DNA of 64,000 bases from Porodaedalea pini. Its lineage: Eukaryota; Basidiomycota; Agaricomycetes; Hymenochaetales; Hymenochaetaceae. This document shows, in pieces, positions 31,933 to 59,562 of the stretch (its first letter is position 1; the number at the start of each line of letters is the position of its first letter). The stretch is from assembly GCA_002794775.1 (NCBI GenBank), contig NBAY01000104.1, positions 33,845 through 97,844 on the forward strand, in the 5' to 3' direction. A program made the position numbers and the translations under genes. The notes below the pieces were generated by a model. The model did not search any database, was not told the DNA's origin, and worked only from the letters and a program-made list of their open reading frames with translations.

Positions 31933-31934
31933 AG

Positions 31935-38495: not shown

Positions 38496-38496
38496 A

Positions 38497-38910: not shown

Positions 38911-38915
38911 GCTTC
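38911..38915. repeat. 5-bp target-site duplication of B1, right copy
   Basis: GCTTC, identical to 32597-32601. Confidence 0.9.
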
Positions 38916-39900
38916 GAGTTCCGTAGCTGAGCTGTGGGATACCGCCGATGGTGTCGGTACGGGAGCGAGCAATTGGACGAAGGCGAAAGAGGTGATTATA
39001 GCGTTCTACCCGGCATTGGCGCCTGGCGTGCGCTTCACCCGGGAAGACCTCAACAGGCTCGTCGAAGGTTGGAGGAGTAAAGGAATACAGTCGAGGGAGG
39101 ATTTCAGAGAGTATAAGAGAGAGTTCATGGTGAGGTCGAAGTATTTGGAACGTAACTCGATCGTTTCAGCGGAGGAAGCGGCACGCGCATTCATTCGAGC
39201 CTTTACGGGCAAGATGAAGGACAGGTTACAGCAACGCCTAGAAACGAAGGAGGCTGACCCGTCCCCGGGCAAACCATATACGATCGATGTGGTGGTAAAG
39301 CACGCGGACTACATCCTGGCCAGTACGGTTTTCGACAACGTACCGACGACTCGAGCGCCCGACCCGATGAATCAGTCAAAGGTAAAGTCGGAGGAAGTGG
39401 ATATCGGTACGGTGTGGGAAGCAGTCAAGAACATTCAGGTTCAGGTACAGTCACTCGGGCGAAGACCGCCGCCAGCGACGACGTCCCAGAGGAGTCCCGG
39501 GTGTGCGTTCTGTGGCGACATGAGCCACTACATTAGGTCGTGCCCGAAGGTGCTGGAGTATATCCAGGCAGGCAAGTGTGTGAGGGATGCGAACGGGAAG
39601 GTGACGCTACTGAACGGAGGGTTCGTACCGAGCACGGCGGTGGGTAATAATTTGATGGAAAAGATAGACTCGTTGCGTCAGGAGACCAGTACGGCCTCGG
39701 TTAACCTCATAGAGGTAGCGAAGTCGACAACAACAGGCACCGAAGTGTCGGAAGGCCCAGCGATGATGGCCGAAATTGCGGAGGAAGTATCGGACGAAGA
39801 GTTGGAAGTGGCGCAGTACGAAACGTTGTTGAATGAAGCGAAGAAGCAAGCGTCGGCGGCGAAGAAAGCCAAGTTTGATGGAGTCGAGATACCGGTATGA

Positions 39901-42900
39901 CTGAAACCCGGTCCAGCGAATGTACCGACGACCTCGAATGCGAAACCGAGCGTACCGAAGCCAGCGGGTAACCCGAACATCCCCCAGGAGAGCCGATCGA
40001 CGACAAATTTGGGCGGGAACCAGCCACAGTTCCGGTACGTCGCTCCAATCGAGGATCCGGCGACGGTTCAGAAGGTATTGTCGAGGACGTTAGACTCGGC
40101 GGTAACGGTCACACAGCGGGAGCTCCTCGCTCTGTCTTCGGATATGAAGTGGCAGATGAAGGAATTGACAACAGCAAAGCGGTACGTGGTCGGTAATGTC
40201 AACCTCGTCGAGTCAGACCAGGAAGGGAGCGAAGTCGCGGAGTACTGAGCGGTACCGGAGTCGTTGGCTCCGGTTCTCTTAGAGTCGGGACCGGCGGCAC
40301 ACGACGTGCTTCCCATCTGCGTAATTAAGGTATTGATTGAGGACGCCGTCGAAGCAGAAGCCATACTCGATCAAGGGGCAGTGGTGTGCATCATTCGGGA
40401 AGACGTGTGGGAGAAGCTAGGAATTCATTTAGATCTGGATCACGCAATGACGCTCGAAGCCGCAGACGCGGGGAAGTCGTCGACATTGGGAAGGATTCGA
40501 GACGCCAGATTCAGGGTAGCGGGTGTGGATTTGAAGTTGCAGGTTCAGGTGGTTTTGGTGGCGCCATTCAAAGTATTGTTGGGGCGACCATTTTTCGCTC
40601 TTACCGAATGCAAAACGAAGGATTTCTTGTCGGGCAATCAGCATATAACCATCACGGATCCCTGAGATCAGAATCGTAGGAGCAAGGTGTCGACCGGTAT
40701 CCGGGCGTTCTGGCATGCTCCGGAATCGGGTTTTCACAAGTCGAGGAACTGATGCAGCGGTGCTGGCGAGATGAGTGGAAACAGACGGTATGCGAGACGT
40801 GCCATGGAGTCGATCCGTCGGTACGCGTACCGAGCTCATGTACAGACATTTTATCTTTGCGTTTTAATGACCCCGATTATGTATCTCGTCGTCCAACCCC
40901 TTCTCAAACCAAAATCTATTCTCAATTTGTTCAACCCGTTTACAGTTTTCAACAAATGTCCCCTAATGTTTTAAACCAATCCGATTCGACTATTTCCCAT
41001 TACGTTTCCCCAAGTTTTACCTTGAATACCCCAGCTCCATTTATTTATTCGCAGAGATTGAATTTTCTTTTATCTCCTTGCACCGTTGCTTTGGATGCTT
41101 CTTTGGACACTTTTGGTTCGGTGGTGCTGGATTCGACGGAGGATGAAGGAAGTGTTTTGGCGTACAAGCGGGTGGCGCAGAAGGTCCGTCCCGTACCGGG
41201 AGTGTTGCTGGAGGAGTTTCGTATAGTTCGAAGGCGACATCCCGATCCATTGGCCGACATGCCAAAGTTACCGACGAAACCGGTACCGTTCGTACCGACG
41301 GGAAAGTTTACGCAGGAAAGGCTGGATGTGATGGATTTGGACCCAGGCGGATTTCTGTGGGACAAAGAGAAGAAGTTGGTGGTGAATCTGATCATGTTGC
41401 AGGAAGGGGCGTTTGCGTGGTCGGAGACGGAGAGAGGGACCTTAGATCCGACGTATTTTGATCCGGTACGCATACCGACGGTGGCGCACATACCGTGGGT
41501 GCGGAAGAACATACCGATCCCCCCTGGGATACTCGAAAAGATGCTAAACATACTCAGGGAGAAGATCGCCGCCGGAGTTATCGAACTGTCGAACTCGTCG
41601 TACCGCTCGAGGTGGTTTTGTGTGGTAAAGAAAGACGGAGCGTCCTTACGGTTCGTTATCGACTTGCAGGATCTGAACGGAGTGACCATTCGAGACTCGG
41701 CCGTACCGCCGGACATCGAGATGCTAGTAGACGCGTGCAGCGGACGTGCGTGTTACATGGTACTTGATCTCGCTGTTGCTTTTGACCAGCGAATGCTCGA
41801 CGAACGGTCCCGAGACTTAACAACGTTCCAGACCCCGCTCGGTACGTTTCGACTGAAGGTGTTACCGATGGGATACACGAATTCGCTGCAGATTCTCCAT
41901 GGAGACGTCACGTTTATTCTCAGCGACGAAATTCCTAAGGTGGCGCAGCCGTTCGCGGATGATGTAATTATGCAAGGAGGGTTTACACGGTACGAGCGTA
42001 CCAACGGAGGGTTCGAAACGATTCCCGAGAACCCAGGCATCTGCCGGTTCGTCTACGAACACTTGTGCGATGTAAATCAAGTGCTGCAGAGGATGAGGAA
42101 AGTGGGTGGTACGTTTTCCGGGAAGAAATTCCAGGCGTGTACCGATTCAGCGATATTTTTGGGGAATAAACTCACGTACCGAGGGCGCGAACCAGACGAT
42201 TCGAAGGTTCAGAAGGTGCGGGATTGGCCCCCATGTCAAATGGTGACGGAGGTGAAAGGATTTCTCGGTACGGTTGGAGTGTTGAGGGTGTTTATTAAGG
42301 ATTTCGCGAAGAAAGCTCGACCATTGACCCGACTTACGCGTAAAAACAACATATTCGATTGGGGACCGGAAGAGCAGGATTTGATGGACACGTTGAAGGA
42401 AGCGGTTATCGACTGCCCGGCACTGTGCGCGATCGACTACGGGTCGGACAGAGCGGTTATCTTAGCGGTGGATTCGTTGATCATAGGAGTAGGGTGGACG
42501 TTGGGCCAGGATCACCCGGATGGTAGGAGAAGGATTAATCGGTTCGGGTCGATCAACTGGAACTCGGTACAGGCGACGTACTCCCAGCCGAAGATCAAGT
42601 TGTTCAGGTTGTTTAGGGCATTGAGGGCGGTGAGGTTGTTTATTTATGGAGTTAAGCTCCTGGTGGTCGAGATGGACACAGCGTACGTCAAAGGGATGAT
42701 TAACGATCCGGATCTACAGCCGAACGCGACGATAAACCAGTGGATTGCAGGAATTCTCCTTTTTGACTTCGAGCTTCGCCACGTACCAGCCGCGGAATTC
42801 ACGTGTACCGACGGACTGTCGAGACGGCGAGCCACGCCAGAGGACCCCCAAGAAGAAGACGACTATGAAGAATGGATCGATGCAGCGTATGCGTTTTTGT

Positions 42901-44357
42901 ATGGAGCAGTGTTGAGTACCGACGTCGAAGAAGGGCCCGGTACAGCCACAGATCCTCAGGGGCAGCGATTTCCGGCCTCGGATTCGGTAAAGTCGCGAGA
43001 TAAGCGATTAGAGTTGGTTCGGTACCTCCTCGAACACGGAAGGAAGCCCTCAGAGATCGACGAGAAGCGCTTTCCCTCGTTCGTCCGGTACGCCTCCGGA
43101 TTCTTCGTGCGAGCAGGACGGCTTTGGCGAAAGACCCGACGAGAGCATCCCCAGCTGGTCGTCGAACAGGAACGCCACTGGTTGCTCGTCCAGCAGGCTC
43201 ACGACGATCTCGGACACAAGGGAGTGTATTCGGTACGCGCTCGATTGCTGGATCGGTTTTGGTGGCCATCGATTTTGGAGGACGTCAAATACTTCATGCG
43301 TATGTGTCATATCTGTCAGGTGCGCCAGACCACGAAAGTGTCGATACCGCCATTGGTACCGGACGTACCGATGTTGTTCGCCCGGATCCACATCGACACA
43401 AAGCACATGCCCACTTCAGGAGGCTTTCACTACATCGTACATGCGTGGTGCTCCTTGTCCAGTTACCCGGAGTTCCGACTGTTATGAAAGCAGACTGGTC
43501 ACACGATCGGGCAGTTCATTTTTCAGGAATTACTGTGTTGGTACGGCGCGTGTCCTGAACTCGTTACCAATAACGGTACTCCGTTTATTGCTGCGCTTGA
43601 TTGGTTGCGGGATCGGTACCACATTTCGCACATCAAGATCTCGGCGTATAATTCTCAGGCCAATGGGATCGTCGAATGATGGCATTACGACGTCCAGGAA
43701 GCCTTGATCAAGGCAGCCGACGGGAACACATCCAAGTGGCATGAGCACGCTTACTCGGTTTTCTGGGCCAAGCGTATCACAATCCAGAAATCGACCGGTA
43801 TGTTGCCGTACTACATGGTTCATGGAGTCGAGCCGGTTCTTCCCTTTGATCTTGCCGAGGCCACTTATCTTGCTCCGCCGTTGGATTCCCTGATGCGTAC
43901 CGAGGAACTGATAGCGACCCGGGCGTGCCAGTTACAGAAGCGTCCGGCGGACCTTGATAGGATCGTGCAGTTGGTTCGAGATGCTCAACACAAGTACGCT
44001 AGACAGTTTGCCGAAGTCCATAAGCACGTCATCAAGGACTACGATTTCCAGCCCGGTCGACTTGTACTTGTGCGGAACACCCGGATCGAAAAGGAGTTGG
44101 ACCAAAAGACGAAGGCCCGGTACTTGGGACCGTACGTCATCGTCCGTAGGACACGTTCCGGAGCATATATTGTCTCGGAACTCGATGGATCGGTTTCCTG
44201 GATTCGGGTTGCAGCTTTTCGTCTCATTCCTTATTTTCCCCGATCTGACATTTCTGTTCCCCTTGACGAAATCCTTCGACAGGATGATGACGAACATAGC
44301 ATGATGAAGGAAGATCTGGTAGAAGAAGACGGCTCTGAGTTGGACTCTGATACCTAG
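39901..44357 (+). pseudogene. Pol of element A (protease, RT, RNase H, integrase; degenerate)
   Basis: The protease region (40264-40665) has ILDQGAVVCIIREDVW, with DQG in place of D[S/T]G, and LLGRPFF. After a frame change near 40750 a 911-codon frame carries RT (HIPWVRKNIPIPPGILEKML, SSYRSRWFCVVKKDG, catalytic PFADDVIMQGG), RNase H and the integrase zinc finger (HDDLGHKGVYSVRARLL ... CHICQV). The integrase core is broken: TGA at 43485-43487 and 43677-43679, and the expected TDNGT reads TNNGT, losing a catalytic Asp. The C-terminus keeps a GPY/F module (ARYLGPYVIVRRTRSGAYIV) but no chromodomain. Stops at 39898, 40246 and 40663 are also TGA. Not functional. Confidence 0.82.
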
Positions 44358-44771
44358 TCGCGAATTCTGATTATGTTCGCCATCCAAGGTATCGGTACGC
44401 GTACCGACACGTACCGACGCCTCCTTATTTTATTATCTTTTAATCAATTATGATCCAATTATGTTTTAACCATGGAACCGTTTACATTCTTTCATACGGA
44501 ACTCTTTCTCGATTATCGAAACATTAAATATATGGCCTATCTTCGATTTCCCTTTCGGTACAATAGTAAAATCACAAACGGACACTTAACGACGACCTTT
44601 CCTTTTCTTATTCTCTTCGTTCTTTCATTTTATCACACCCAAAAACTTAAAGAAAACAAAAGAAAAATCCATATTCAAAAATATATACAAATAAATTACT
44701 ACACTTTGTATTATTTTTCTTTTTTTTTTCTTTTTCTTTCCGCAGGACCAAGTCGTACCAACGCGTACCGA
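44358..44771. terminator. AT-rich convergent 3' region between pol and the antisense gene
   Basis: About 410 bp separate the pol stop (plus) from the antisense gene's TAG (minus, 44774-44772). The strand is strongly AT-rich, with a long T-rich run near 44717-44741 that reads as an A-rich tract on the minus strand, fitting a shared poly(A) region. Inferred from composition and layout. Confidence 0.4.
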
Positions 44772-46277
44772 CTAGTCCTCCTCCTCCTCCCTTGCGCCCC
44801 ACTTCCCCTTCTCAAGCGCCGCAAGGCGCGCGCGGATCGAGGCCGCTTCGGCCGCCTGACGAGTTGCCTCTGCAGCGAGTCGACGCGAGCTACGCTCGAG
44901 CTCGCGGACGTCGCGGACGAGCTCCGCGACGACGTGGTCGAACTCGTCTTCGGAGTCGTGCTCCGAGACGAGCTCGCGCAGGTCCTCATATGCACCGGCG
45001 AACCGGCTTGGACCTGCGACGGGCGGCGAGGCAGTGCGGCCCCTCTGTTGCTGCTGCTGCTGCCACGGTACGCGTTGTAACACCAACCGGTTCGTTGGGC
45101 ACGGAACGAGCGGAACGCACGCGATGTACGTCACAAAGTCGAAGAGCCTCGACTCGGCAATCGAGCAAAGCGGTACACCCGGGTCGGCGGTGATTACCCG
45201 AACACGGAACGCACGCAACGGCCGGATCGCACGCATCAGCTACTCGGACCGACCCCGGTGCACTTATCTGTGCGCGTGTCCACTCGACCCTGCCAAAGGT
45301 TCGTTTGTTTGCCTTTGTCTAACGAACATGCGGCAGCCCGGCATTGGTCGTTCCGGCTCCGTACAAAGGATCCCGAAGCTCACCGACGCTACGCCAAGTC
45401 AACACGCGCCGTCCCCGCCTTTCAGTAGTTCGGATCGTGGAGCCGCTCAAAGGAAACACTCAGGAGGCTCAGTGGTAGGACAATAGAGGACTCGTCTTAT
45501 TTTATTTCGCCTTTCATGTTTACGCAGGACACTTGTTTAGTATTTATAGAGCGTCGAATGTTGTAGATAGAAGAGCAATTCCACCCCCGAGTTTCGACGC
45601 CTAACTTCGTGTGCTATCTCTCAGGACTGTCTCTAGGTACGCCTCGGTGCCTCAGTGACTCAAATCGCTCACCTCGACTTCGTTTTATTCGCATTGCGCC
45701 CGTTGCGCTCGTTCCGTCCGTTCCGTCCTTACCTCGTTTCGCTTCGTTCTCGTTATCTCGACTTCGACTCCCTCTCGTCTCTTATCTTCTGAATTAAGTC
45801 CCGTATCTCGCCCCGCTCTCTGGTACTCCAGACGACGTCTGTTGAGCACAGGGACCAGCCGTCCATCCCGAGGACAATCCCGCTCCGAGAAAGTCGTGTT
45901 AGTATTAGCGCGTCTCCGTGTCTTCCGACACAGCCACCGACGATCCCCCACACATCTCGAGCGCTCCGCCGGCGCTACGCTTCGAACACTTCCCTATTAG
46001 TACGCTTCGTCGATTCCGTTGCCCCTGACACACCGGAACGCACGCAACCCGAATCCTGCAATCCGGAACCCACGGAACTCGACCGGAACGAGGGTATTGA
46101 CCCATTAGACACGTCTCCCTCGAACTCAATCATCTGATTCCTATTCACTAACAACCGGAACGAGGAATTATCAGCGTGCGGCAGCAGGCCTCGGTACGCG
46201 AGGCGGTGGGGACGGCGTGTCCACCACGATCGGAGAAGCCAGCGCGGGCGGCGCAGACGACGCAGACGGCTGCGGCT

Positions 46278-46309
<32 letters not shown>

Positions 46310-49300
46310 GGCTGCGGTGCCTTAGGCGCAGCACGCGGTACGTGTTAGGACTCGAACTTTCATCTTTTCTTTTATTATTCCTTTGGCCATTTCTTTTCTT
46401 TTAATCGCTCCTTTTCATTATATTTAATCATCTTTTCAATCATTTCCCACACTCTTTTCACATGACCTTCATTCGTTCCATTCCGCCCCCCTTTATGTAA
46501 TCTTAGACAAAGGGGCAACCGGTTCTCACGGGGTGATCACTGTATATAAGGAAGAGGAATCGCATCTGAACACCTGTTCTGCTTTTCCTCTTACCTCCGT
46601 GATGACCTAGGTGAGACCGCGTCCCCCTCCTGTAGTAAAGTACATTGTATTAATCCTCTTACCTCCGTGACGACCTAGCCTGAGTACAGCGTGTCCCGAG
46701 ACTCCACTCGAGTATAGCACGTCCCAGACGACAGTCAGCCGAGACCTGCCCAGTCCGAGTTGTCTCCCGGACTCCCACCTAACAGTATGCCCTCGTCGCG
46801 GGCGGCGCGTTTCCGCTTTCCACCTGACTTTCTGCCCCGGACCTCCTTCGCGCGTCCCTGGGTCGCCAGCGAGCACCCTGTCCACCAGACGACTGTGCAG
46901 AGGAAGCAAGCCCTACCGGGCTGCCCCTGACACGTTCTCCCCCGACGTGCGCAGTTGGCGCACGCCTCCTCGAGAGGGACCGGCAGCGGTCCCGCTGTTA
47001 GAACCTGAACTTTCACCTTTTCCTTTATTTTCCCTTTTACCATTTCCTTTATTATATTCGTCCTTTTCATCATATTTACCCATCTTACACAATCATTCCC
47101 ACACTGCCTTCATTCGTTCCATTCCCACTCGTTATGTAATGTTAGGTAATATAGTCTCACGGTCGTCGCTATATAAGGTCTCAGGAATCGCATGAACTCC
47201 TTGTTCTGCTTTTCCTCTTACCTCCACGACGACCTAGGTGAGACTCGTCCCCCTTGTATTAGTTTAGACTTGTATTAATCCTCTTACCTCCGCGACGACC
47301 TAGCCTGAGTAAGCGTGTCCCGAGTCTACGCTCGAGTATAACACGTCCCAGACGACAGTCAGCCGAGGCCTGCCCAGTCCGAGTCATCTCCCGGACTCCC
47401 GCCTAACATAAAAGCAGAACCCCACCCAGGCTCATCCCCAGCGTACGTCGTCGCTGTCGACTCGCCTTCACTTGGTCTAGAGGAGCGCTCCCCTCGACGG
47501 ACTTGACGTGTAGAACCCCTAAACAACAAACCCTCAACCCTGCCCGGACGTTTTTCGGACGTTCGTGTATTACGTAAAACCACACCCGACCCTGGCTCTC
47601 TGCCTCTCCCTCTGGTGGAGGAACCATCTGACCTGGACGTGGGTAACACACCGTGTGCAGTCGTCGACGTCATTGTCGATTGTGATCTCGATAGCCTCCT
47701 TCCGTTTGGTCATCAAACTAGCCGACGAACCTGTCCTTCGTCAGCGTAACATACATCCGGACAACCAGCCCCTACCTGTTCCCCCCCCGACGTAGTCAAA
47801 ATAGATCTCACCGAGGAACAACAGCGGGCTTTCCCCTCTTCTTCACGCTACGACGCGGAACGCCAATTGTACGTAGCGGACGACAGAAACCACGTCACTC
47901 ATAATCTCTGGTGGAGTGACACTAGGCACGCCTGGTACTCGACTGACTCGTCTTCCGGCGAGCGAACTCGTTGGGCGCCTCGACCTCCCCGTACACCATC
48001 TTCACCGACAGTCTCGACATCGTCGGTCGTCCTCCCAAGCAAACCAGGAGGCTATCGTACACCCCATAGAGACTCGTCACCGCCGACACCCCCTGAACAC
48101 CTAACGCACACGCCCGTCCCAGCGATGTCGGAGGGCTTTACTCAAAGGCAGCAACAGGAAATCGCGGCGATCGTAGCGGCCGCCTTCACCCGCGCGGCAA
48201 CGAATGCCCCTGCGGCCCAAGCCCCAGCCCCCTCAATTGACGTTGCCCGGCCACGCGAATTCGCTGGCAGCGATGACTACCTTGACTTCAAGCGCGAAGT
48301 CCTTCTCTTTGTCTCGGCGAACCCCGCAAAGTACCCCTCGTCGTCGAGCAAGATTTACGTCGCCCTCTCTTACCTCAAGGGTGGCAACGCGTCGACGTGG
48401 GCACAAAACTACGTCCAGGAATTCACAACGAACGGCGTCGTGAGCTTTACGGACGACTGGGCCAAGTTCCAGGAACGACTGGATGCCTCCTTCGATGATC
48501 CAAACAGGAAGGAGAAGGCGCTGAAGAAGTTCCGAGACAAAATCCAGAAGGACCTCTCCGCCGACCAGTTCTTCCAGGACCTCGACGTGATCATCAAGGC
48601 AGCGGAGCTGAAGGACGAAAGCGTCATTTGTGACCACCTGCAACGCGCGATGAACATCGAGGTGGTCCGCGGCGTGTTAAGGTCGACGCCCGTGCCGACA
48701 ACGTATGAGGCATGGAAAAAGAAGGCCATTGAGATCGATCGGGGCGAACAACAGATTCGCGCCATCCAACGAGGTCGTACATTGCCATTCACGCCCCGTC
48801 CGACGCCCCAACAAGGGCCTCCTGCACGCCGACAGGTAGCAGCCCCGCACGCCGATAAGCGTGATGCGACGGGCGTCACTTTCGGAGGTGCTGGCCAACC
48901 GATGGACGTCTCGATGAATGAGGCGCAACGAAAGCGCGCGTGCTGGATTTGTGGCGGACTGGGACACTTTAAGGATAAATGTCCGCAGGCGAAGCCGATC
49001 ATCCAGCGTATGTTGGAGCTGATGGCACCGGGCGAGCGCCACCTCATCGCTGACGAGCTCGGCGCGATGAAGGAGTCGGCATTCGAGGAAGTCGTGGACA
49101 CTCGAAGGTCGACGGTGGAGGACTATGTGGAGGAAGAAGACAATGACGAAGAGGTCGTCGACTCGCAGGGTTTTGCGAGTGGTCAGGCATAGCCATCGGG
49201 GCGACTGACCGAGAAGAACAAGGGACTTCGAATCCGGATTCGCTAAAATATAACCAACCGTCTGTACAATACATAGATGCAAACGACGTCGATGGTTTTC

Positions 49301-52300
49301 TCGATTACGAAGTCCCCACCGGTGTGAACAAAGAGGAAGAGTACGAACAACTGTTCATGAGAGGAACTGGCGGACGCCAACTGGACCTTCTCCTGACTGT
49401 TGAGCATGAAATAGCGGGTGAGAAGAGAGAGGTGGATGCGCATGCCCTTGTGGATTCAGGATGCACGGGATCCTGCATCGACGTCAGGTTCGTCGAAAGG
49501 TATGGGTTGGAAACGAAACGCTACATCCGACCCCTCGCGGTGCTCAACGCCGATGGCACGCACAATGAGGCCGGATTGATCGAGGAGTACGTTGACGTCG
49601 AACTCATGATCGGCCGTCACCAAGAGAAGATCGTCCTCGCAGTAACGTCCCTAGCATCGTCAAACATCTTCCTGGGTACAACTGGCTTTGACGTCACAAT
49701 CCGGAGGTCGACTGGAAAATGGGTTCGATCGAATTCACCCGCTGTCCGGAAGAATGTGCGATCAAGAGGGAGCCGGAGGAGGACCTAGGCAAGGTGAAGG
49801 AGGTGGTGGAACAGATGAGGAGAGTGAGTGAGATGCGAATGGACAAGGCGTCCTGGCCCGCATACCTCAACGACTACGCCGACGTTTTCAGCGAAAAGGG
49901 TTTCGAAAAGCTGCCGGAACACCGACCCTGGGACCATGTCATCGACTTGAAACCCGACTTCAAACCAAGCGACTGTAAGATCTACCCGCTCACGCCAACT
50001 GAGCAGCAGTCACTCAAGGATTTCCTTGATGAAAATCTGAAATCGGGTCGCATTCGACGGTCGATATCGCCCATGGCGTCGCCCTTCTTCTTCATTAAGA
50101 AGGCCGACAAATCGCTACGCCCGATCCAGGATTACCGTAAGCTCAATGACGGTACGATCAAGAACAAGTATCCCCTCCCTCTCATTGATGAACTCGTCGA
50201 CAAGGTCAAGAAAGCGAAGTACATCACTAAGCTTGACCTTCGCTGGGGATACTACAATATCCGGATCCGTGAGGGTGACGAATGGAAGGCAGCGTTTCGC
50301 ACGAACATGGGCCTCTTCGAACCGACGGTCATGTTTTTTGGCCTTTGCAACGCGCCGGCCACGTTCCAGGCCTTTGTCAACCACATCTTTAAGGACCTAA
50401 TCTACGCGAACTTGATCATTGTATACCTCGACGACATCCTGATCCTCTCAGAAACCATTGAGGAGCATATCGACACGTCGAGGCGCGTACTCCAGATCCT
50501 CCGAGAAAATGGCCTGTACCTGAAGCCGGAGAAGTGTGAGTTTGACGCCAAGGTTGTCAAATACCTCGGCCACATCATCGGCAATGGTGAGATCAGGGCT
50601 GACCCGGCAAAGACGGAGGCGATTGCGAACTGGCCAGTCCCGCAGAACATCAAGGAGCTGCAACAGTTCCTCGGTATGGGAAACTGGCTGAGACGGTTTA
50701 TTAAGGACTACAGCAAGGTGGTCCGACCATTGACGTCGCTAACGGGCAAGAAGGACTGGGCATGGGAGACCGAACAGCAGGAAGCGTTCGAGGAGCTGAG
50801 ACGACGTCTCTGCTCACCTCCAGTCCTAGCCATCGCCAATGACGAGGGCCCTTTCCGCGTAGAAGCAGACTCGTCGAACTTTGCGCTCGGTGGTGTGTTG
50901 TTGCAGAAGCAGGAAGGGAAGTGGAGGGTGATCGCCTACAGGTCAGAGGCACTTGAACCGGCAGAACGAAACTACGAGATCTACGACAAGGAGATGCTCG
51001 CGATCGTTTCGGCACTCAAGGAGTGGCGGCAATACCTCCTTGGCGCTCGCCACAAGATTGAAATCTGGTCTGACCATGCTAACCTCACCTACTTCAGGTC
51101 GGCGCAGAAGCTGAGCTATCGCCAAGCTCGCTGGCGGACCGAACTTGAAGAATTCGACTTCCACCTCGAACATAAGTCGGGCAAGACGATGGGCAAGGCC
51201 GACCTGCTATCGCGCATGGCGGGCTATGATCAGGGCAAGGATGACAACGATGGGGTCGTGTTCATCAAGGATAAGTGGTTGAACTGTGGAGTGGTGAGGA
51301 CATCGCGCGACAAGGTGGTGGAACGAGTGGGTGAAGCGCAGAGGGCGCAGGATGAGTCGGAAAGGCCTACGGGTTTGGTGAAGGTCGACGAGTTATGGCG
51401 GATGAAAGGCAAGGTGTATGTCCCATCGACAATAAAGGAGGCCGTGTTGCGGGAGTGCCACGACTCGGTTCTGGCTGGACATCTGGGAGCGTTGAAGACA
51501 GTAGAACTCGTCCGTCGCAATTTCTGGTGGGCATCGATGTTCTCCGACGTCCGAGCATACGTCCGAGGATGCGACCGTTGTCAACGGACGAAAGCCTTAA
51601 GAACGTCGAGGTCTAGACCGCTTCATCCAAACGCTGTTCCTGAAGGACCCTGGGAGATTGTTACGGTCGACCTAATCGGAGAGCTCCCGGACTCCAAGGG
51701 ACACAACGCGATCTGCGTCTTTGTGGATAGGTTCTCAAAGCAGATACATGCGATCCCGACGACGACGAGGCTGTCAGCAGAAGGCATGGCCCAGCTGTAC
51801 CGCGACCACGTCTTTTGCCTCCATGGCCTACCGAAGAAGATCATCCACGACCGAGGCACGCAGTTCGATGCGTCGATGATGAAGGAGCTATACAAACTTC
51901 TGCACATTGAAGGTAACCCATCGACAGCGTTCCATCCACAGACAGATGGTCAAATGGAACGCGTTAACCAAGAGCTCGAACAGTACCTTCGACTCTTCGT
52001 TAACCATCGGCAATCGGACTGGAAGGACTGGCTCCCCCTTGCAGAGTTTGCATACAACAACCGCGAACACTCAGCAACGAAGATGTCCCCCTTCTACGCG
52101 AACACAGGACGTCACCCCTTGAGCTTCGACACGATGCGAACCACATCTGCTAACATGTCAGCGGAAGAATTCGCAAAACACATCAAGGAGACTCATTGCA
52201 TTGCTAAGGACAACCTAGTCAAGGCAGCAGAGGACATGAAGCGCTACCATGACCGGACAGCAGGAGCTTCGGTGGAGTACAAGGCTGGGGACAAGGTCTT

Positions 52301-54760
52301 CCTTGATGGGCGAAACATCAGTACGGACTCGCCGACAAAGAAACTCACAGACAAATGGTACGGCCCCTTTGATGTCATCGACAAGATAGGAGCAAGCGCG
52401 TACAAGCTCAAACTCCCGAAGCGATGGAAAAAGGTCCACCCTGTTTTCAACGAAGCCCTATTGAAACCCGCCGTCGAACCGTCCTTTGAGAGCCAGAAGC
52501 AACCGCCGCCGCCGCCACCAGACATCGTTGACAACGAGGAGGAGTACGAACTCGAAGAAGTCTTAGACTCACGTCTGCACCGAGGGAAACTACAGTACCT
52601 TGTCAAGTGGGTCGGCTACAATGAACCTACTTGGCAACCTGAGACAGACTTCAGCGAGAACGCAAAGGAGGCGATCGCTGAGTTCTACCTCAAACATCCT
52701 GGTGCACCTCGGAAACTCGATATCCCTCGTCAACGACTCCGTCTGCTCTTCGTCGACACCGAGCCTGACGACCGCGATCATGGTTGGTCGGGACGCCCAA
52801 CCTTGAAGGGGGGGTAATGTTAGAACCTGAACTTTCACCTTTTCCTTTATTTTCCCTTTTACCATTTCCTTTATTATATTCGTCCTTTTCATCATATTTA
52901 CCCATCTTACACAATCATTCCCACACTGCCTTCATTCGTTCCATTCCCACTCGTTATGTAATGTTAGGTAATATAGTCTCACGGTCGTCGCTATATAAGG
53001 TCTCAGGAATCGCATGAACTCCTTGTTCTGCTTTTCCTCTTACCTCCGCGACAACCTAGGTGAGACTCGTCCCCCTTGTATTAGTTTAGACTTGTATTAA
53101 TCCTCTTACCTCCACGACGACCTAGCCTGAGTAAGCGTGTCCCGAGTCTACGCTCGAGTATAACACGTCCCAGACGACAGTCAGCCGAGGCCTGCCCAGT
53201 CCGAGTCATCTCCCGGACTCCCGCCTAACACCCGCCCACCGTAGACAACCGGTCGCCGGGTTGACCAGTTCGACCCCATCAAACACGGTGACCGAGGGAC
53301 CCAACATACCATCGGTACGCCCTTCGTCTGCATGGTGGTATGACAAACCACCACCCTCTGCCTCCATCGATACGGGGGTGGGCTCAGCTGGAGCGAGACG
53401 CCCCTCCACCTCTTCGACTGGCGGCTCCCGGCATTGCTTCATGTGAGGGCCCCCACAACCTCACTCACGTGCTCGACGCACGCCTCCTCCACTCTCCCAA
53501 TGACCACGCGCACGCGCCCGACGCGTCGCTTCCGCCTGCTTCCGAGCCTCTTCCTGAGTGGCTAACATGGCAGCGAGACCGGCTTCGTCTCGCGCCCGCT
53601 GCTCGGCTTCGTGCTCCGCGGCCGCCTCCATCTCGAAGAATAGTCCCCCAGGCGCATTCGCTGGGGTCGGGACACTTGACGCCACGCTCGGTGTGGGTTG
53701 TTGCTGCTGCTGTTGCCGCAGTGGCTCCTCGCGTGGTCCGGTACGCGTTCCCTCCTCGTCGTCAGACGCGATCTCGACGGTCGTACGCCATCGCCACTTG
53801 TCGGCACCCGTCTGCTGTTGCTGTTGTGCTGACGGGGCGTCACCGGTACGCGGTACGCCGGACCTCTCCTCGCGCATCGTGCTTGCCTTGACTTCGCACG
53901 GACCCATCTGCTGTTGCTGTTGCGCAGACGCGGTACCGTCGGTACGCGGGGCAGCACACTCCTCCTCCTCGTTCACGACCTCCTCGACCTCGGGCAGACC
54001 AGGCGTTTCAAGACGTTTGACGAACACCTCGACTGCCGGTACAGCCGACGGGACCCCAACGAAGCGCGGTTGCGCCTCACGCTCCACGGGGTAGACGAAC
54101 TTATACCCGTACTCGTCGGGTACGAGTACGCGCTCGAACTCTCCACCGATGTACGGTACGTCGTCCGGCCAGTCCGCGACCGGTACGACGAATCCCTCAC
54201 CCCGGTACTTGGTGAGGTTGACCGTCTGGTGGTCGGCGAAATACCGACCGTAGAGCCGGTCGGCGGTGGACTTGTCGAGCCCATCCAGTGCCCACCGCAT
54301 CTCCTTCCAGACCCGCGCGACCTGGAGGTACGTCCGCAGATCGGACGCGATCGGGTGGCGGTTTGCCGGCACCACGGAGTCCCAGTAGAGCTGGTAGTAG
54401 CTCTCCAGGGTGCGCTATTTTGAATCGGTCAGCTCGGTACGCGTGCTTGATCAAGTTTCGAGGACTCACCTTCGTGCCGTATGCCCACTCGGCCCACTTC
54501 CACCGTTCGCCGATCTCGCGACCCCGACTCCCCGCCAGTAACGTCTCCCGCCGTTTCACGTACCGCCCGAGGCGGCGTCGCACGTACCGGTCGATGTCGA
54601 CCAGCCGTTGCTCGATCTCGCGGGTGTCCCACGTGATCTTCTCGCGCTCGACAGTGCCGACATTGTCGACGTACCCCGGTACACGGGGTGCCTTGCACGC
54701 CAGCCGAGGTGGCGCCATGCTGTTGCTGTTGCTGCTGCTGTCGCGGTGCGGAGATGACAT
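44772..54760 (-). CDS. Antisense accessory gene of element A: Gln-rich Zn2Cys6-type protein, split by three insertions
   Basis: Reads against gag-pol, starting 162 bp from the 3' LTR. Exon 1 is 54760-54470, exon 2 is 54414-53469 (GTGAGT donors, introns 55 and 51 nt). Exon 3 is 53417-53231, 46990-46785, 46337-46174 and 45071-44772, the gaps being B2, a B-type solo LTR and another solo LTR, each removed with one target duplication. The sum is 2,094 nt, 697 codons, in frame and free of stops. Features: helical N-terminus (REIEQRLVDIDRYVRRRLGR), acidic stretch, several Gln runs, and six cysteines spaced C-x2-C-x6-C-x7-C-x2-C-x7-C at about residues 485-514 (46962-46873). KSGGKRKRAAR follows, then another Gln run and an acidic heptad-like C-terminus (RSSRRLAAEATRQAAEAASI). 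Looks like a nuclear DNA-binding regulator (inference). Currently disrupted by the insertions. Confidence 0.75.
45072..45075. repeat. 4-bp target-site duplication, left copy (solo LTR C)
   Basis: GCGT, matched at 46174-46177. Confidence 0.65.
45076..46173 (+). mobile_element. Solo LTR 'C' (1,098 bp) inside the antisense gene
   Basis: Begins TGTAACACC and ends GGAATTATCA, flanked by GCGT. Contains a TATA-like TATTTATAG near 45547-45555 and a downstream region resembling other gypsy LTRs. Removing it with one GCGT joins codons ...PAAAR|VPWQQQ of the antisense gene in frame; its own first bases on the minus strand (TGATAA) otherwise create a stop. That frame restoration is the main evidence for the borders. 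Confidence 0.75.
46174..46177. repeat. 4-bp target-site duplication, right copy (solo LTR C)
   Basis: GCGT, matched at 45072-45075. Confidence 0.65.
46338..46342. repeat. Target-site duplication of solo B LTR, left copy
   Basis: GTACG, versus GTATG at 46785-46789; the one difference is a CpG transition. Confidence 0.6.
46343..46784 (+). mobile_element. Solo LTR of the B family ('B3', 442 bp)
   Basis: TGTTAGGACTCG...CCCACCTAACA with the B-family TATATAAGG box and GTTCTGCTTTT start motif. It is more diverged than the LTRs of B1 and B2 and about 28 bp longer. Flanked by GTACG/GTATG. Removal keeps the antisense gene in frame. Confidence 0.85.
46873..46962 (-). other. Zn2Cys6 cluster of the antisense gene
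   Basis: Encodes CANCARRGRTCQGQP..., with six Cys at spacing 2-6-7-2-7, inside the fungal Zn(II)2Cys6 consensus C-x2-C-x6-C-x(5-12)-C-x2-C-x(6-8)-C. All six codons lie in one uninterrupted segment between solo LTR B3 and B2, so the motif does not depend on any join. Confidence 0.75.
46991..46995. repeat. 5-bp target-site duplication of B2, left copy
   Basis: CCCGC, identical to 53231-53235. Confidence 0.9.
46996..47408 (+). repeat. 5' LTR of B2 (413 bp)
   Basis: TGTTAGAACC...CCTAACA. TATA box TATATAA at 47170-47176; predicted transcript start at GTTCTGCTTTT, 47203-47213. Confidence 0.92.
47170..47213 (+). promoter_or_regulatory. TATA box and predicted transcription start of B2
   Basis: TATATAA at 47170-47176, then GTTCTGCTTTT at 47203-47213, a TATA-to-start distance of about 33 bp. 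The second motif is the one complementary to the PBS. Confidence 0.65.
47410..47420 (+). other. Self-priming PBS of B2
   Basis: AAAAGCAGAAC starts two bases past the LTR end and is the perfect complement of GTTCTGCTTTT at 47203-47213. This is the arrangement of Tf1-type self-primed retrotransposons (established for Tf1); no tRNA-like TGG start is present. Confidence 0.75.
48125..49192 (+). CDS. Gag of B2
   Basis: 355 residues from the ATG of MSEGFTQRQQQEIAAIVAAA. The capsid core includes REFAGSDDYLDFKREVLLF and FQERLDASFDDPNRKEKALK; the nucleocapsid has one CCHC knuckle CWICGGLGHFKDKC; the tail is acidic (VEEEDNDEEVVDSQGF). The frame is open for about 370 nt upstream of this ATG, with protein-like sequence (VKIDLTEEQQRAFPSSSRYD) and no ATG, so the true N-terminus may lie upstream through frameshifting or another start. 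Gag ends at the TAG at 49190-49192, just after the slippery site. It looks intact, unlike B1's. Confidence 0.88.
   Translation: MSEGFTQRQQQEIAAIVAAAFTRAATNAPAAQAPAPSIDVARPREFAGSDDYLDFKREVLLFVSANPAKYPSSSSKIYVALSYLKGGNASTWAQNYVQEFTTNGVVSFTDDWAKFQERLDASFDDPNRKEKALKKFRDKIQKDLSADQFFQDLDVIIKAAELKDESVICDHLQRAMNIEVVRGVLRSTPVPTTYEAWKKKAIEIDRGEQQIRAIQRGRTLPFTPRPTPQQGPPARRQVAAPHADKRDATGVTFGGAGQPMDVSMNEAQRKRACWICGGLGHFKDKCPQAKPIIQRMLELMAPGERHLIADELGAMKESAFEEVVDTRRSTVEDYVEEEDNDEEVVDSQGFASGQA
49168..49210 (+). promoter_or_regulatory. -1 frameshift signal at the gag-pol junction of B2
   Basis: Slippery G GGT TTT (49168-49174) in the gag frame (CAG GGT TTT), spacer GCGAGT (49175-49180), stem GGTCAG (49181-49186) with CTGACC (49205-49210) across an 18-nt loop. 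Reading from TTT in the -1 frame enters pol directly (ATDREEQGTSNPDS...). Conserved in B1. Confidence 0.78.
52805..52814 (+). other. Polypurine tract of B2 within the pol coding end
   Basis: GAAGGGGGGG immediately before the TAA and the 3' LTR; encodes the last residues LKGG of pol. The same sequence lies in B1 on the minus strand (about 33019-33028). Confidence 0.7.
52818..53230 (+). repeat. 3' LTR of B2 (413 bp)
   Basis: Nearly identical to the 5' LTR; the roughly three differences seen (near 47250/53050 and 47290/53115) are CpG transitions. Confidence 0.92.
53231..53235. repeat. 5-bp target-site duplication of B2, right copy
   Basis: CCCGC, identical to 46991-46995. Confidence 0.9.
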
Positions 54761-54902
54761 GGTTGGAAGAAGCAGGAGAAAAACCCGTCGGTACGACCAC
54801 TTTTCCAATGCCCTCTCTAGCGTGTTCCGACGCGCGTGATCAGCGTGATCAAGCTTCTCGCGTGTATCAAAAGAAGAGAAGGCATGACTGGGGACAGTCA
54901 CG

Positions 54903-54909
54903 ATTTAAA
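54903..54909 (-). promoter_or_regulatory. TATA-like box upstream of the antisense gene
   Basis: TTTAAAT on the minus strand, about 145 bp before the antisense ATG and 12 bp from the 3' LTR edge. Position fits a promoter at or next to the LTR; weak evidence. Confidence 0.3.
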
Positions 54910-54921
54910 CGCCCCAGGAGA

Positions 54922-56847
54922 TGTAGAGCCGTGCCGATCGTCCCATCACCACCGATCACTCCAGAAGCATTCAAGAACTGGTTCCGATGCGTACCGATCA
55001 GTACCGGACTCAACCCAATCGGTCCGGTCTCAAATCAGAACCTCACGATCGTGTCATCAGCACGTTCCCACACCTCCGAAAGCATACTGGAACGTACCGG
55101 AGATCTTATCTCGACAATTAGGGACGCGGTGAAAGGTGACGGTACGGTCTACTGGCAGACTCGGACCTGGTTGAGTTCGGCCACTGGGGGTTCACTCTAA
55201 CGTGTCTGATGGAGGGGATAGTGTCAGGAAGTGTGGGGAAGTGTAATAGAATACTCGGGGCTAGGTGTCGACTCGAGGACGCGAGTACAAAGGACGACCG
55301 GCAAAACGTGCCTAAATGCGGTCGGAGAACAAAGAGCAACTACGATCTTGACAACCCGGGCTCGGAAACTCGCCAGTGAAGACAGGAATCGATACTATTC
55401 GTCGAGACGATTCTGAATCTGAAAAGACCTCGAGACGCGATGCAGAATTGACGGAGATATAGCAGTTGCACTGGTTGCGGCTGGCGGAACGCACGGAACT
55501 CCCGGAACCAAAAGCTATTTTCGTAGCTCTACGACACGGGCTCGGAATCGTGCAAGAAAAGACAATGTTCGAAAGCGATTTTCGACGAGATTAAGAATCT
55601 GAAGAGAGCTCGGGAAACGGATAAGAACTGAGGGCGATATAGCGAAAGCAAGATTTGGCCGAAAACGGGACTCGAGACGGAACGGACGGAACGACACTGA
55701 ACGGCGACGGAGACGAGAACCAAAGACTGGGACTGACTCGGGGGAACTAAACTTGTATTTTTGAGACATTTACATGAGTGTTTAAATAACCAACAGAGGG
55801 TTGAGCCTCTGAGCGGCGTACAAAGGACACAAAGACAGACCGGAGGCTCTAGCCAAACAACACCAAATAGCCGGAACTCGGAGCCGTAACTCGAGAACAT
55901 GAGTAATTAAGCTTTGGGAGGCTCGGAACAATACCAGATGTGACCCAAAACGGACTTTGGTGGCTCACCGGTGCAGAACCAAGCTGTATGCGTCGAGTTA
56001 ATACTGCCAAACACTGAAACTGTCCTGAAATGCGTCGGGGATACTTGTTAGACTGTCCTGAGTCGAGTCGAACCTAATAGAGCCGATTCCGAGGCCAGCG
56101 GCATCAGGATCTCCACAGCGGTCACATGGAGCATACAGCCAAGACGCGTACCGGACTGCTGTCCGACGATGGGAGCCACGTACCGATTGGACGATCTGAG
56201 TTCCAGTGGAGCACCAGTGTGATCGGACGCGAAGCAGACGTTTTCCTCATTATGATTTATGTTTTTTCCTATGTTCTTCTGATTTCTATGCACTCTATGC
56301 GTGCCTCTATGACCTATGACTTTTCCTTTCGACTTCTCTATGTTTCGACTGATATGCACAGTATGCCCGTATGGAAATTATTAACTGTAGATAGATCTTT
56401 GGACTTAGTATAAATAGGCACCCCATGTCGTAGGTAGAGGACAAGTCAGTTCTACCGCAGAGTCTCCCTCAGATAGGGTAACTTGAGTGCGATCCGTCTT
56501 TGTTTTCGTAATCTTGTAGTTGTTCCGTCTTCGTCTTAGCATCTCGTCTTTCGAAACTGTCTCTCGTCTCATACTTCGTAACTCGAACCTCGCTGCTCGT
56601 TGTGATCACACCGTACCGGTGTTGATTACCCGCGCGTACTGACTCCGTACCGGTCAAACCACAGACCCGACAGGAGTTCCCGACCTTTGTTCTCGATATC
56701 GACACGTACTGGCGCGTACCGAAGTGTACCAACGCGTACCGGTACGTCGAGCGACCTCACCGCAGTCTACCCCTAACTTCCCAGAGCAACGCGATCACGT
56801 CCCCAAAAGGACCATTGATCCCAGACACCCCTAAGTCAGGATCTACA
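54922..56847 (+). repeat. 3' LTR of element A, interrupted by a solo LTR
   Basis: 1,926 bp; minus the 988-bp insertion and its 4-bp duplication it is 934 bp, exactly the 5' LTR length, so no net indels. The substitutions relative to the 5' LTR are CpG transitions. Confidence 0.9.
55130..56117 (-). mobile_element. Solo LTR 'D' (988 bp) inside the 3' LTR of A
   Basis: TGAAAGGTGACG...GATCTCCACA in plus reading, flanked by GCGG (55126-55129 and 56118-56121), so TG...CA on both strands. A TATTTAAA box on the minus strand near 55785 suggests minus orientation. Absent from the 5' LTR, where the sequence runs straight across. Family differs from A and B. Confidence 0.82.
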
Positions 56848-56851
56848 GTGC
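56848..56851. repeat. 4-bp target-site duplication of element A, right copy
   Basis: GTGC, matched at 30995-30998. Confidence 0.8.
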
Positions 56852-57772
56852 GGTTTGTGTTTGTTGAGGAAGAAAGTGGTGAAGTCTTTGAAAAGAAAAA
56901 AGCAGGTCATCCAGTGCCTCAGGGGTGTGAATGTCATTTAATGAGAATGGGAATAGATTAGATTCGCAAAATTCCACAACAAAAGCGGGCAGATCTTGAG
57001 AACGGATTGAGCAAAGGGGAGGTTGAGAAGGGGATGCAAGAATGTTGATATCAAATGAAAAGGAGAGTGGAAGATGGTCAGAGTCAATGTCTAGAGACGC
57101 ATTGGAGATAGAGACGTTATCTAAAAGATGGGGGGAAAAATTGTCTGAAGCGATGGCAAGGTCGAGAATGGATTTAACGTTGCTAGAACGGTTAAAATAA
57201 GTGTGTTGGTTGGGGGGGTTGCAAACCACTAGCCCACTGTCATTGATCCAGTCAACGAGAGCGCTTGACATCAAAAAATAAGAAGATTGAGCTGGAAAAG
57301 ACCAGAGCTCCAAATGTCGATTGAAGTCCCCAACAAAAATGTTGGAGGGGAAACGAAGAGAAGGGAAAGGGTTTTCGAATTTGTGTAGACTTGGGGAGTT
57401 GTAGACATTCCAGAGTAATAGGGGGGATAGGTCTCCGCGCGAGATAGTGACAACGGAAATATTCGGGGAAAGGGAGTCGGGGTTGTACAAAGAAACGCGA
57501 TGGATGATGCGGGGGTGCACGAGCGTACAACAGCGAGGTTTACCAGGAGCAGAGGGTCTGAAAACAATGTAAGGAGCGGTGTTGCGAATTTGAAAAACCC
57601 GTGAGCCTAAAGGAGACGTTTTAGAAGGAAAGATAGTAGAGAGGGTCAGAATCTCCTGGAAACAAACAATGTCGGGAGTAAAGTTTGTGGTCAAAAATGA
57701 ACGTAAAAGATAGTCAAAGGTAACTGCTGAATTGCGGATATTAAGAGAAAAAACCAAAATTTTGTCAGTCAT
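56852..57772 (-). pseudogene. LINE ORF2, endonuclease portion (frameshifted)
   Basis: Starts ATG at 57772, five bases after the ORF1 stop: MTDKILVFSLNIRNSAV. Apurinic-like endonuclease residues are present: Asn in LNIRN, Glu in CFQEIL, Asp/Asn in FVGDFNRHLELW, and the final SDHLPLSFS. Toward the junction the frame must shift by one (near 56900-56930, around the codons for DDLLFS) to read FKDFTTFFLNKHKPH into the RT half at 30998, so an indel has broken ORF2 here in addition to element A. Confidence 0.8.
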
Positions 57773-57777
57773 AAAGA

Positions 57778-59562
57778 TTAGTAAGGAGAGCGATAGTTTT
57801 GGCGAGCTGGACACTCCGGTGATCTGGCACTGTGATTGCCCTGGCAGTTGATGCAATGGGTGAAGTGGTCGCATTGAAGGTTGTTGGATGCGGTACATGG
57901 AGCACATTTGGCAACATGGATCGCAGTTTGGTGGGTTTCGGAGCAAATTGCGCAGCAGGCTACCGAGCGACATTTCAAAGCGTGGTGTCCCAGGCGATGG
58001 CAGTTATCACACTGGTTGATGGTGGGGTGAGCTTTCATTTCTTCGAGATGGCGGATGACTCTGAAAATAGGGACAGATCAGTTATTGTGAAGGAAGAAAT
58101 GGTCAAAGCAAAGTCGCAACTCGTCTTTGAGGACAACGGATACGTTGCAAAAATCGCGTTGGTTAAGGCGCTCGATAGACGACATAAAATGGGGTGGGAA
58201 CATAAATTCGTGACCCTTGAATTGCGGTAGAGCAGAGATCTCCTCGATCAAGTCCTTCTCCGAATACAGGAGCTTGGTGTCTTTGTCAAAAACTGGGACA
58301 CCAGGGATAACCATTTTGAACTGGGGCGACGGTGTGAATGCCCTAGCCCCGGAAATGTTGATGATGCGGTTTAGTTGGGACACTAGTGCGCTGTGTTGTG
58401 TATCAAAGTCAGAACAAATGTTAGTGAACGCGATGAGGAGGTTGCTGTTAGTGGTATATTCAACGTTCAGGATGACGAGGTGTTTAAAGAGCGGATTGCC
58501 CTTGAGTCCCACACGGACCGCGTTTTTAACAGAAAGGGTGGACGGGTGAACAGCGAGGTCACCCGGAAGCAAAAAGAAAATTTGGCGGACGTTACGCACG
58601 TGGGTATTTACCGATCCGTTAGACCGGTTGATTGGAACAGTCGAGATTTCCCCTTGAGGGTTCTGTTCTGTAACTCAGACTACTTTAGTAGGAGTAGCCT
58701 TGGGTTTCTTTTGCACAGCTTTAGCATACAAAACGGTAGTGAAGCCCTCTTGGTTGACTCCGACGGCTTCGATGGGTGGGTAGTAGATTTTGGTCTGGGA
58801 TCCACGAGGAGCATTATGTTCTGAATGGGCGTAACCATCGGGTGCGATGATAGTGCCTTCCGAAGTCATGCGGTAGCCAGATCCCGGAATATGGGTCTTG
58901 GCGATGGCGGCGGTGTATTCTGTCTTTCCGTTTTTCGGGGCTTGGACACGTTGTTTGACAATAGGGGCCAGGGGTGGAAACTTGGGATCATGGACAAAAC
59001 GAACCCCAATAGGGTCCGGTAGGATTTTGTTCTGTTTGTTAGCATTAAAGTTAGTAGGAACTGATGGCTGAACTGAGGGAGCTGAGGGGTCCGAAAGCTG
59101 TTTTTCAATAGTATTAGTTTTTTCTGAGATAGAAGAGACGACTGCCGAGAGATGTTGGATGGACCTGGACATAGCGTGCATGGTGTCAGTGATTTCCTGA
59201 TCGCGAATGGTTTGACTGTTAACATAAATGTTTTCAAAAACGTGTTTAAAAGATGGTGAGTGAATGCGAAAGGTAGAATGGAAAGATTCCAGACTCTCGT
59301 TGGCCAAGTTCTGGAGAGATGTCTCGTCATCCAAATTGTTGGATTTGTTAATCCAAGATACCAAGTTGGAGCCAATGTTGGTGAGGATGGATCCGGCCCG
59401 ATTAGGATTGTCGTACCAGGGCTTATCGGACAACCATGTGGGCTGGGAGATGAGCGTGTTAATCGTATTGACAGTTTCCTTGGTCATCACAAAATTTTGC
59501 ATCAAATGATATACGCTTTTGGGAATGATAATGACGCAGTAATGATCGGACCAGACTAAATT
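57778..59562 (-). pseudogene. LINE ORF1 (gag-like, zinc knuckles; two TGA stops)
   Basis: RNA-binding ORF1 in one frame with TGA at 58675-58677 and 58078-58080, both possible CGA remnants, ending at a true TAA (57778-57780). The N-terminal half is helical (KETVNTINTLISQPTWLSDK). The centre has an esterase/RRM-like region (NAVRVGLKGNPLFKHLVILN). The C-terminus holds three CCHC-type knuckles: CDNCHRLGHHALKC, CAICSETHQTAIHVAKC and CINCQGNHSARSPEC. The start Met is missing or was lost in 5' truncation. Confidence 0.8.

Follow-up and report, generated by a model that had tools for sequence, protein, structure and literature searches.

An antisense zinc-cluster gene and family-specific CGG words point to a possible self-recognition system in a fungal Ty3 retrotransposon

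What is a gene for a regulator-like protein doing on the minus strand of a retrotransposon? The question is raised by a stretch of DNA from Porodaedalea pini (the window; 64,000 nucleotides, G000:C104:33845-97844, part of a 53.3 Mb genome) in which, according to an earlier note made from the letters alone, the strand opposite to an LTR retrotransposon, here called element A, encodes a spliced Zn2Cys6-type protein between pol and the 3' LTR. We find that this minus-strand gene is real: a homologous frame is present in other genomic copies of element A and in a second family of elements, D.

Element A is a Ty3-type LTR retrotransposon on the plus strand, with gag, protease, RT, RNase H and integrase in that order between two LTRs. 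The 5' LTR (30999-31932, plus strand; TGTAG...CTACA, as defined by BLAST of both LTRs and by sequence) contains an array of four CGTACC units with a 10-bp period at 31790-31825. Aligned pieces of the LTR pair are 95-98% identical by BLAST, and 40 of 335 candidate matches to this LTR in the genome were scored. The leader and the start of gag (31933-32601, plus strand) are interrupted by element B1 (32602-38912, minus strand), which is inserted in gag, and the remainder of gag follows as an ORF at 38917-39900 (plus strand) with a CCHC knuckle recognized by eye. Note that gag gave no match in a Pfam search and was identified solely through its 44% identity to the gag of family D. The protease (40264-40665, plus strand; Asp_protease_2, E 3e-6) and the RT, RNase H and zinc domain of the integrase (ORFs within 40752-44357, plus strand; RVT_1, RT_RNaseH and Integrase_H2C2) gave Pfam matches in order, the frame of the RT, RNase H and integrase being broken in the window copy. 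A spacer with a CGTACC array at 44394-44415 separates pol from the end of the antisense gene (44358-44771), and the 3' LTR (54922-56850, plus strand) has been split by family E, a gag-only family of which a solo LTR lies at 55125-56117.

The antisense gene starts with an ATG at 54760. Exon 1 (54470-54760, minus strand; 97 codons) is followed by a 55-nt intron (54415-54469, minus strand; GTGAGT...CTGAC...AG), and exon 2 comes in pieces, all on the minus strand. The first part (53231-54414) encodes a conserved N-terminal region and Gln runs, the next (46785-46993) the zinc cluster, CANCARRGRTCQGQPGRACFLCTVVWWTGC, together with a KRKR patch, the next (46181-46344) a Gln/Pro-rich part, and the last (44772-45075) an acidic, heptad-like C-terminus that is homologous in family D and ends in a TAG stop at 44772. 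All of the features that had been ascribed to the protein outside its zinc cluster, namely the Gln runs, the KRKR patch, the acidic stretch and the heptad-like C-terminus, are present. Likewise, the Ty3 element B2 (46994-53230, plus strand) and the two solo LTRs that had been placed within the gene are located in exon 2; one solo LTR is about 80% identical to the LTR of B (about 46345-46784) and the other belongs to family D and carries 9 CGGAACG sites (about 45076-46180). The leader or promoter region of the gene (54761-54921, minus strand) holds a CGTACC site at 54790 and a TATA-like TTTAAA at 54904-54909, which lies 12 bp from the edge of the 3' LTR; in every one of the 24 loci that cover this edge, TTTAAAT stands beside it.

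The first half of exon 2 matched 50 places in the genome, some of which are fragments of one copy. Thirty copies were fetched from the same genome. Exon 2 is open over 609-617 codons in 8 of them (some of these with a damaged exon 1), and the remaining 22 loci, as read, contain stops, insertions or truncations. The donor and acceptor of the 55-nt intron are kept in 28 of the 30 copies, with a CTGA branch-like element, and these signals are kept also in copies that are only about 60-70% identical in protein. (In the alignment of exon 1, locus L013 lacks the end of the exon and the intron, and L025 has an apparent stop.)

The 55-nt intron is the sole supported one. The earlier note had called two introns and had counted, with the inserts removed, exactly 698 codons (697 residues and a stop) free of internal stops. 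The second intron finds no support: its supposed donor reads GTGAGC, and the region is continuous coding sequence in all eight copies with an open exon 2. The codon count appears overstated as well, the other copies having 97 plus 609-617 codons. A single CpG-type change near 53461 creates a TGA stop and a GTGAGT donor look-alike together; it is found in 6 of 20 readable copies (L009, which is the window's, L010, L022, L026, L029 and L032) and is absent from 14. A recurrent CpG change would thus suffice for the appearance of a second intron, and splicing there would not be needed in the six copies. Because the second intron is unsupported, the window copy of the antisense gene is a broken one, with three insertions and a premature stop. 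(The presence of this TGA in six copies may reflect a CpG hot spot or inheritance.)

Copies of element A differ chiefly by CpG-type transitions. With CpG contexts left out, eight copies showed per-site differences in the antisense frame of 0.0084 at first, 0.0068 at second and 0.0235 at third codon positions. Estimates of dN/dS for this frame, which had been proposed as a check on the ORF, were well below 1: by NG86 they ranged from 0.33 to 0.71 in 10 A pairs and from 0.29 to 0.60 in 10 D pairs, and by YN00 from 0.38 to 0.81 in A (9 of 10 pairs computed) and from 0.46 to 0.71 in D (8 of 10). When two A pairs were used as a control, the shifted antisense frames gave 0.86-1.12 and two of the sense frames 0.85-1.16. 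These comparisons indicate that the antisense frame is under selection. The five closest A copies carry 7, 12 and 18 non-CpG changes at codon positions 1, 2 and 3, with most changes at position 3 in 8 of 10 pairs, which is a weak signal; per site they differ by 0.0042 in the noncoding stretch beside the gene and by 0.0200 in the LTR. Because these five copies carry few non-CpG changes, the claim of selection rests on the more diverged ones. (Among loci L009-L038 and L058-L062, copies of A and, by eye, of D show mainly CpG to TpG/CpA changes, as in methylated or RIP-like decay.)

The frame analysis bears on the idea that the antisense transcript works as RNA, through dsRNA or through interference with genomic RNA, and that the ORF is incidental. 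Antisense RNA of retroelements is discussed as a regulator in the part of the literature consulted (PMC7264820). However, such an RNA would not account for the low dN/dS of the antisense frame, which is well below 1, and although the mirrored sense frame, having its third positions in common with the antisense one, is low too (0.44-0.47 in two A pairs), it is ridden with stops, at 9-16 per copy in the eight copies in which the antisense frame is stop-free. The conserved intron signals and the homologous protein in D also speak against an RNA acting by itself, which appears in large part refuted by the frame analysis and which we consider very improbable.

When the genome was searched with the region from the zinc cluster to the C-terminus, relatives were found at 26-35% protein identity, several of them lying immediately within D LTRs. 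In the D element at C7, with LTRs at 1217628 and 1227221, the antisense protein contains CDQCLMRGIECTGTPGKACTSCRRLRIRC. Between A and D, pol is 67.6% identical over 540 residues (the pol of A is 24% identical to that of B), gag is 44% identical and the antisense protein about 30-35%; of these three genes, the regulator shows the least conservation. Note that the first 58 residues of the antisense frame of the C7 copy lie in a different frame from that of other matched copies, so that any exon structure for D would be provisional. (Further families with different CGG words had been expected, and the five more distant places that were fetched, L058-L062, turned out to hold D copies, most of them decayed.)

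Searches with the A or the D protein returned only A and D places, save one weak unplaced match (C24:147920, E 0.02), so that two gene-bearing families were found, both in one genome. No homologues at E <= 0.001 were found beyond this genome in a protein database that may hold few fungi, in searches some of which scored about 7990 candidates, those with the most words in common, a set that low-complexity words may crowd; and none were found in viral contigs. These searches also speak to the possibility that the gene is a passenger, that is, a fragment of a host gene captured by a few copies. A source would be at hand, as Zn2Cys6 genes are common in the same genome (Zn_clus at 38 places with E <= 0.01), but the sequence from pol to the end of the antisense gene is unbroken in 25 of 44 DNA matches, D has the gene as well, and the protein searches led to A and D places with the one exception given. 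We therefore regard capture by a few copies as extremely improbable. Instead, conservation among copies and of splice sites, the dN/dS values and the homologue in family D support the presence in element A of a regulator-like antisense zinc-cluster gene.

Zn_clus domains follow the spacing rule C-x2-C-x6-C-x5-12-C-x2-C-x6-8-C. The six cysteines reported for element A are indeed spaced 2-6-7-2-7 (C-x2-C-x6-C-x7-C-x2-C-x7-C, in the piece at 46785-46993), and those of D 2-6-7-2-6, both of which fit the rule. The cysteines are invariant in all eight aligned A copies and throughout a joint alignment of 5 A and 4 D sequences, in which the Gly-x-Pro spacing and the heptad-like region at the C-terminus are also retained. 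The spacing could be read in 21 of the 30 fetched loci, the other 9 being cut, interrupted or changed there. Profile searches were less favorable: the search against Zn_clus that the earlier note had suggested gave no match for the zinc region of A, and with pieces from the window and four copies the A antisense protein yielded only unrelated Pfam hits below threshold. The D protein scored 12.1-12.2 bits (E 0.21-0.22) against Zn_clus, below the gathering score of 21 bits (PF00172). For D, the sole PDB match at E <= 10 was the zinc cluster of LAC9 (E 0.11), and for the zinc region of A the only match was an unrelated enzyme (E 1.4). In hhalign comparisons with eight host Zn_clus domains, the D profile scored 27.4 versus 7.3 when reversed, A alone scored 10.1, barely over the 7.9 of its reversed profile, and A and D combined scored 17.9 versus a maximum of 6.35 in 20 column shuffles and 8.9 when reversed. 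A single-sequence AlphaFold2 model, of low confidence (pLDDT 54.6), placed one helix over each CxxC. The D protein gives weak but specific GAL4-type signals, and the case for a zinc cluster in A draws more on homology with D than on A's own score. We infer that the antisense protein binds zinc.

If the protein is a regulator, which DNA might it recognize? No heptamer is more over-represented in element A than CGGTACG (reverse complement CGTACCG), which has 51 sites in 9,842 bp versus 2.1 expected from dinucleotides when one LTR is counted (corrected log10 p -46.7). The sites form 41 clusters more than 40 bp apart, and they are split 25/26 between the strands, which speaks for recognition of double-stranded DNA rather than of RNA. 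Every locus that was counted, 30 for the antisense gene and 12 for the end of pol, has sites above expectation (2-25 versus 0.1-1.3). For D the word is CGGAACG, with 24 sites versus 2.9 expected (log10 p -10.1) in 13 clusters and with strands at 12/12; seven fetched D LTRs have 7-8 sites each versus 0.4-0.5 expected. The words are not interchangeable: A has 1 CGGAACG (3.1 expected) and D has 2 CGGTACG (1.2 expected). No comparable word was found in B1, B2 and four host stretches, in which the best corrected log10 p ranged from +0.2 to -2.9, the latter being a nominally significant word of one host stretch's own. Element B2, used as a negative control, has its pol end at the start of its 3' LTR, leaving no space for an antisense gene, and its gag-pol has 1 CGGTACG versus 0.7 in synonymous shuffles; the distant Ty3 family B has neither the antisense gene nor either CGG word. 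(For reference, 1130 of 8192 heptamers contain CGG or CCG.)

Could the words be a functionless by-product of tandem slippage, template switching, or codon or amino-acid bias? Some sites do lie in 10-bp or 9-bp tandem arrays, and a period of 9 bp stays in frame in coding regions. Genome-wide, a search for A-type triple arrays that permitted gaps of 1-8 gave 78 partly overlapping matches, all with an exact 10-bp period, and none for the reversed pattern; D-type arrays gave 230 matches, with a 9-bp period in most of those listed. Tandem slippage could account for such arrays. It would not readily account for the 41 separate clusters of the A word, nor for its abundance in the gag-pol coding pieces of A, in which 19 sites occur, spread over both strands and the three frames, compared with 2.1 (maximum 6) across 300 synonymous shuffles. 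Exon 2 of one A copy shows the same tendency (9 versus 1.4 in synonymous shuffles, maximum 5). In D, CGGAACG clearly exceeds its number in synonymous shuffles in the protease part (4 versus 0.4, maximum 2), equals the shuffle maximum of 3 in gag (3 versus 0.4) and is slightly in excess in pol (2 versus 0.6) and in the antisense ORF (3 versus 1.4). A by-product is thus an explanation already strained for A and less well excluded for D, and overall we consider it improbable. Two diverged A-related LTRs, which align to that of A only partly (about 74-90%), have A arrays and keep 7 and 8 CGGTACG sites versus 0.1 expected. Note that CpGs within the words are not clearly better preserved than other CpGs: retention at word sites and elsewhere was 0.859 and 0.788 near the end of pol, 0.774 and 0.742 in the antisense gene, and 0.722 and 0.737 in the LTR. 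(Other, 18-bp arrays, in which CGGAACG alternates with CGGATCG or CAGATCG, were seen at G000:C4:1530616-1530783 and C1:2964477-2964554; roughly 6 kb separate the former from an antisense gene of D that is fragmented.)

The D word also occurs in family E. The LTR of E is of high copy number (239 candidate places, of which the best 40 scored at 97-100%), and the element copy that was read (L063, C45:262580-266639; 4.06 kb) has a gag-like ORF that is 31% identical to the gag of D; neither a pol-like ORF nor an antisense gene for a zinc-cluster protein was seen in it. CGGAACG is found in E 14 times versus 1.1 expected or, with one LTR counted, 11 times versus 0.8, in 5 clusters and with 10 of 11 sites on one strand. 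Bearing the word of D, this gag-only, non-autonomous family may be driven by the regulator of D.

That E has the word and no visible gene shows that the two are separable in cis, which would suit a different explanation, namely that the gene is real and selected and that a host factor, either an activator or a silencer, recognizes the CGG words without any link to the encoded protein. Zn2Cys6 sites typically contain a CGG triplet. Both words contain this triplet, however, and they differ by family and go with the two families that bear the gene, whereas B is without both; moreover, E can be read as a borrower of the D protein. We consider a host factor unlikely, if still worth keeping in mind.

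We favor instead, with a probability of about one half, the view that in each family the antisense zinc-cluster protein binds its own CGG word and thereby brings about self-activation, anti-silencing or both. The antisense gene would be transcribed from the promoter beside the 3' LTR and spliced once, with the LTR probably serving as the upstream region for both promoters. Its product would be a Zn2Cys6-type protein with an N-terminal region, Gln runs, the zinc cluster, a basic patch and an acidic, coiled-coil-like C-terminus. The A protein would recognize CGGTACG and the D protein CGGAACG, each on both strands of its own element, and would coat the element so that transcription is raised, host silencing is kept off, or both. 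Such an effect would act in trans, reaching every copy in which the word is present. As to the earlier suggestion that the protein might control the element or its host, the family-specific words favor control of the element, and no support was found for control of the host. A broader proposal, to which we give somewhat less credence and which we put forward tentatively, is that fungal Ty3 elements have here a self-recognition system in which an antisense regulator and its own CGG word, present along the whole element, diverge together, with E possibly driven by D. On this proposal the words in gag and pol would be set by synonymous choice, and protein and word would have diverged while the pol of A and that of D stayed 68% identical. 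Gene and word are so far linked by two cases, the two families of one genome.

The same data would be expected if the protein binds the words and represses the element, for copy-number control or for targeting of heterochromatin, the sign of the effect being left free. Self-limitation is known in Ty-type elements, and the strong CpG-type decay suggests that copies are generally methylated. Nevertheless, selection within an element would less easily maintain a gene whose sole effect is to repress that element, and the protein has Gln runs and acidic stretches, which are more usual in activators. Repression is in our view a rather unlikely alternative, and activation or anti-silencing by the antisense protein is the reading that we carry forward.

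How do the gene and words of A and D compare with known systems? With the fungal Zn2Cys6 regulators (GAL4, LAC9; PF00172), the A protein shares the six-cysteine spacing, the CGG triplet and a coiled-coil-like region after the cluster. It differs in that its cluster lies in the second half of the protein and is far under the Pfam cut-off, and in that its gene is element-borne and antisense. HBZ, which is spliced and of the bZIP type, is similar in being an antisense transcription-factor-like gene driven from the side of the 3' LTR, with the difference that it comes from a retrovirus of people. It is the antisense factor of HTLV-1 (PMC11963269).

Within Ty3 elements, the gene brtn of Boty-like elements in Botrytis cinerea was reportedly described by Zhao et al. 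in 2011. It is cited as an additional antisense gene of these elements (PMC7264820, PMC8365987), so that to call an antisense gene unusual in a fungal element would be wrong or overstated. Both brtn and the A gene are antisense extras in fungal Ty3 elements; for brtn the comparison is with the citing descriptions, which do not give the type of protein. In plants, antisense ORFs between pol and the 3' LTR are described for Grande (gene23), RIRE2 and Retand (TRP28 ORFs), in the same place and orientation as the A gene, and a nuclear or DNA-binding role has been suggested for them (PMC7264820, PMC11963269). The Grande ORF is reported to have a promoter of its own, and Retand has family-specific tandem repeats. 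In the consulted parts of the same papers, however, the plant proteins are of other types (TRP28 and others) with no Zn2Cys6 described, the Retand repeats are not described as cognate words of the protein, and the role of these genes is left open; the words of A and D, in contrast, also run through gag-pol and the LTRs.

Similar in their manner of working may be the VANC anti-silencing proteins of the Arabidopsis VANDAL DNA transposons, for which motif binding and demethylation have been demonstrated (PMC5735166). In that system, as described in the part of the paper drawn upon, an element-encoded protein goes with short family-specific motifs accumulated as tandem repeats, and related elements have different motifs. 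Elements A and D likewise have an element-encoded protein and accumulated family-specific motifs, the pairing of protein with motif being putative, and their arrays resemble the tandem target motifs of VANC. Moreover, an unrelated Arabidopsis element, AT9TSD1, shares the motifs of VANC6, which family E with its D word resembles (PMC5735166). The differences are that VANDALs are DNA transposons, that VANC is a different protein and that its motifs are mainly noncoding. The likeness would concern the manner of working, and membership in the VANC protein family is not claimed.

Antisense ORFs at this place (plant Ty3, brtn) and motif-array proteins in VANDAL DNA transposons (PMC5735166) are, then, already known from the sources consulted. 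What appears new is the combination of a retrotransposon, a fungal zinc cluster and cognate-type words that reach into gag-pol, which was not found in the literature searched. That literature, covered mostly through listings and in few full texts, did not report any fungal retrotransposon with a Zn2Cys6 gene, and the main text of a paper on LTR retrotransposons in fungi (PMC3248453) contains neither "zinc" nor "antisense". With the gene, a candidate DNA-binding domain and candidate cognate words together in two sister families, the proposal is directly testable. If it is true, sequence-specific self-recognition by a retrotransposon evolved in parallel with that of plant DNA transposons, and the families would amount to a series, made by nature, of zinc-cluster proteins that each have a short target word of their own.

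Some further observations concern the surroundings of these elements. Among the Zn_clus genes of the genome, identical scores were obtained at G000:C64:151287, C64:155563 and C88:374, and again at C44:322601 and C136:56732; these are perhaps mobile or duplicated zinc-cluster genes. In the window, non-LTR-retrotransposon-like ORFs (RT/RNase H-like and endonuclease-like, by eye only) lie on the minus strand at 28106-30394 and 56843-59505, and ORFs at 18105-21054, also on the minus strand, resemble by eye a host gene for a GRAM-domain sterol glucosyltransferase.
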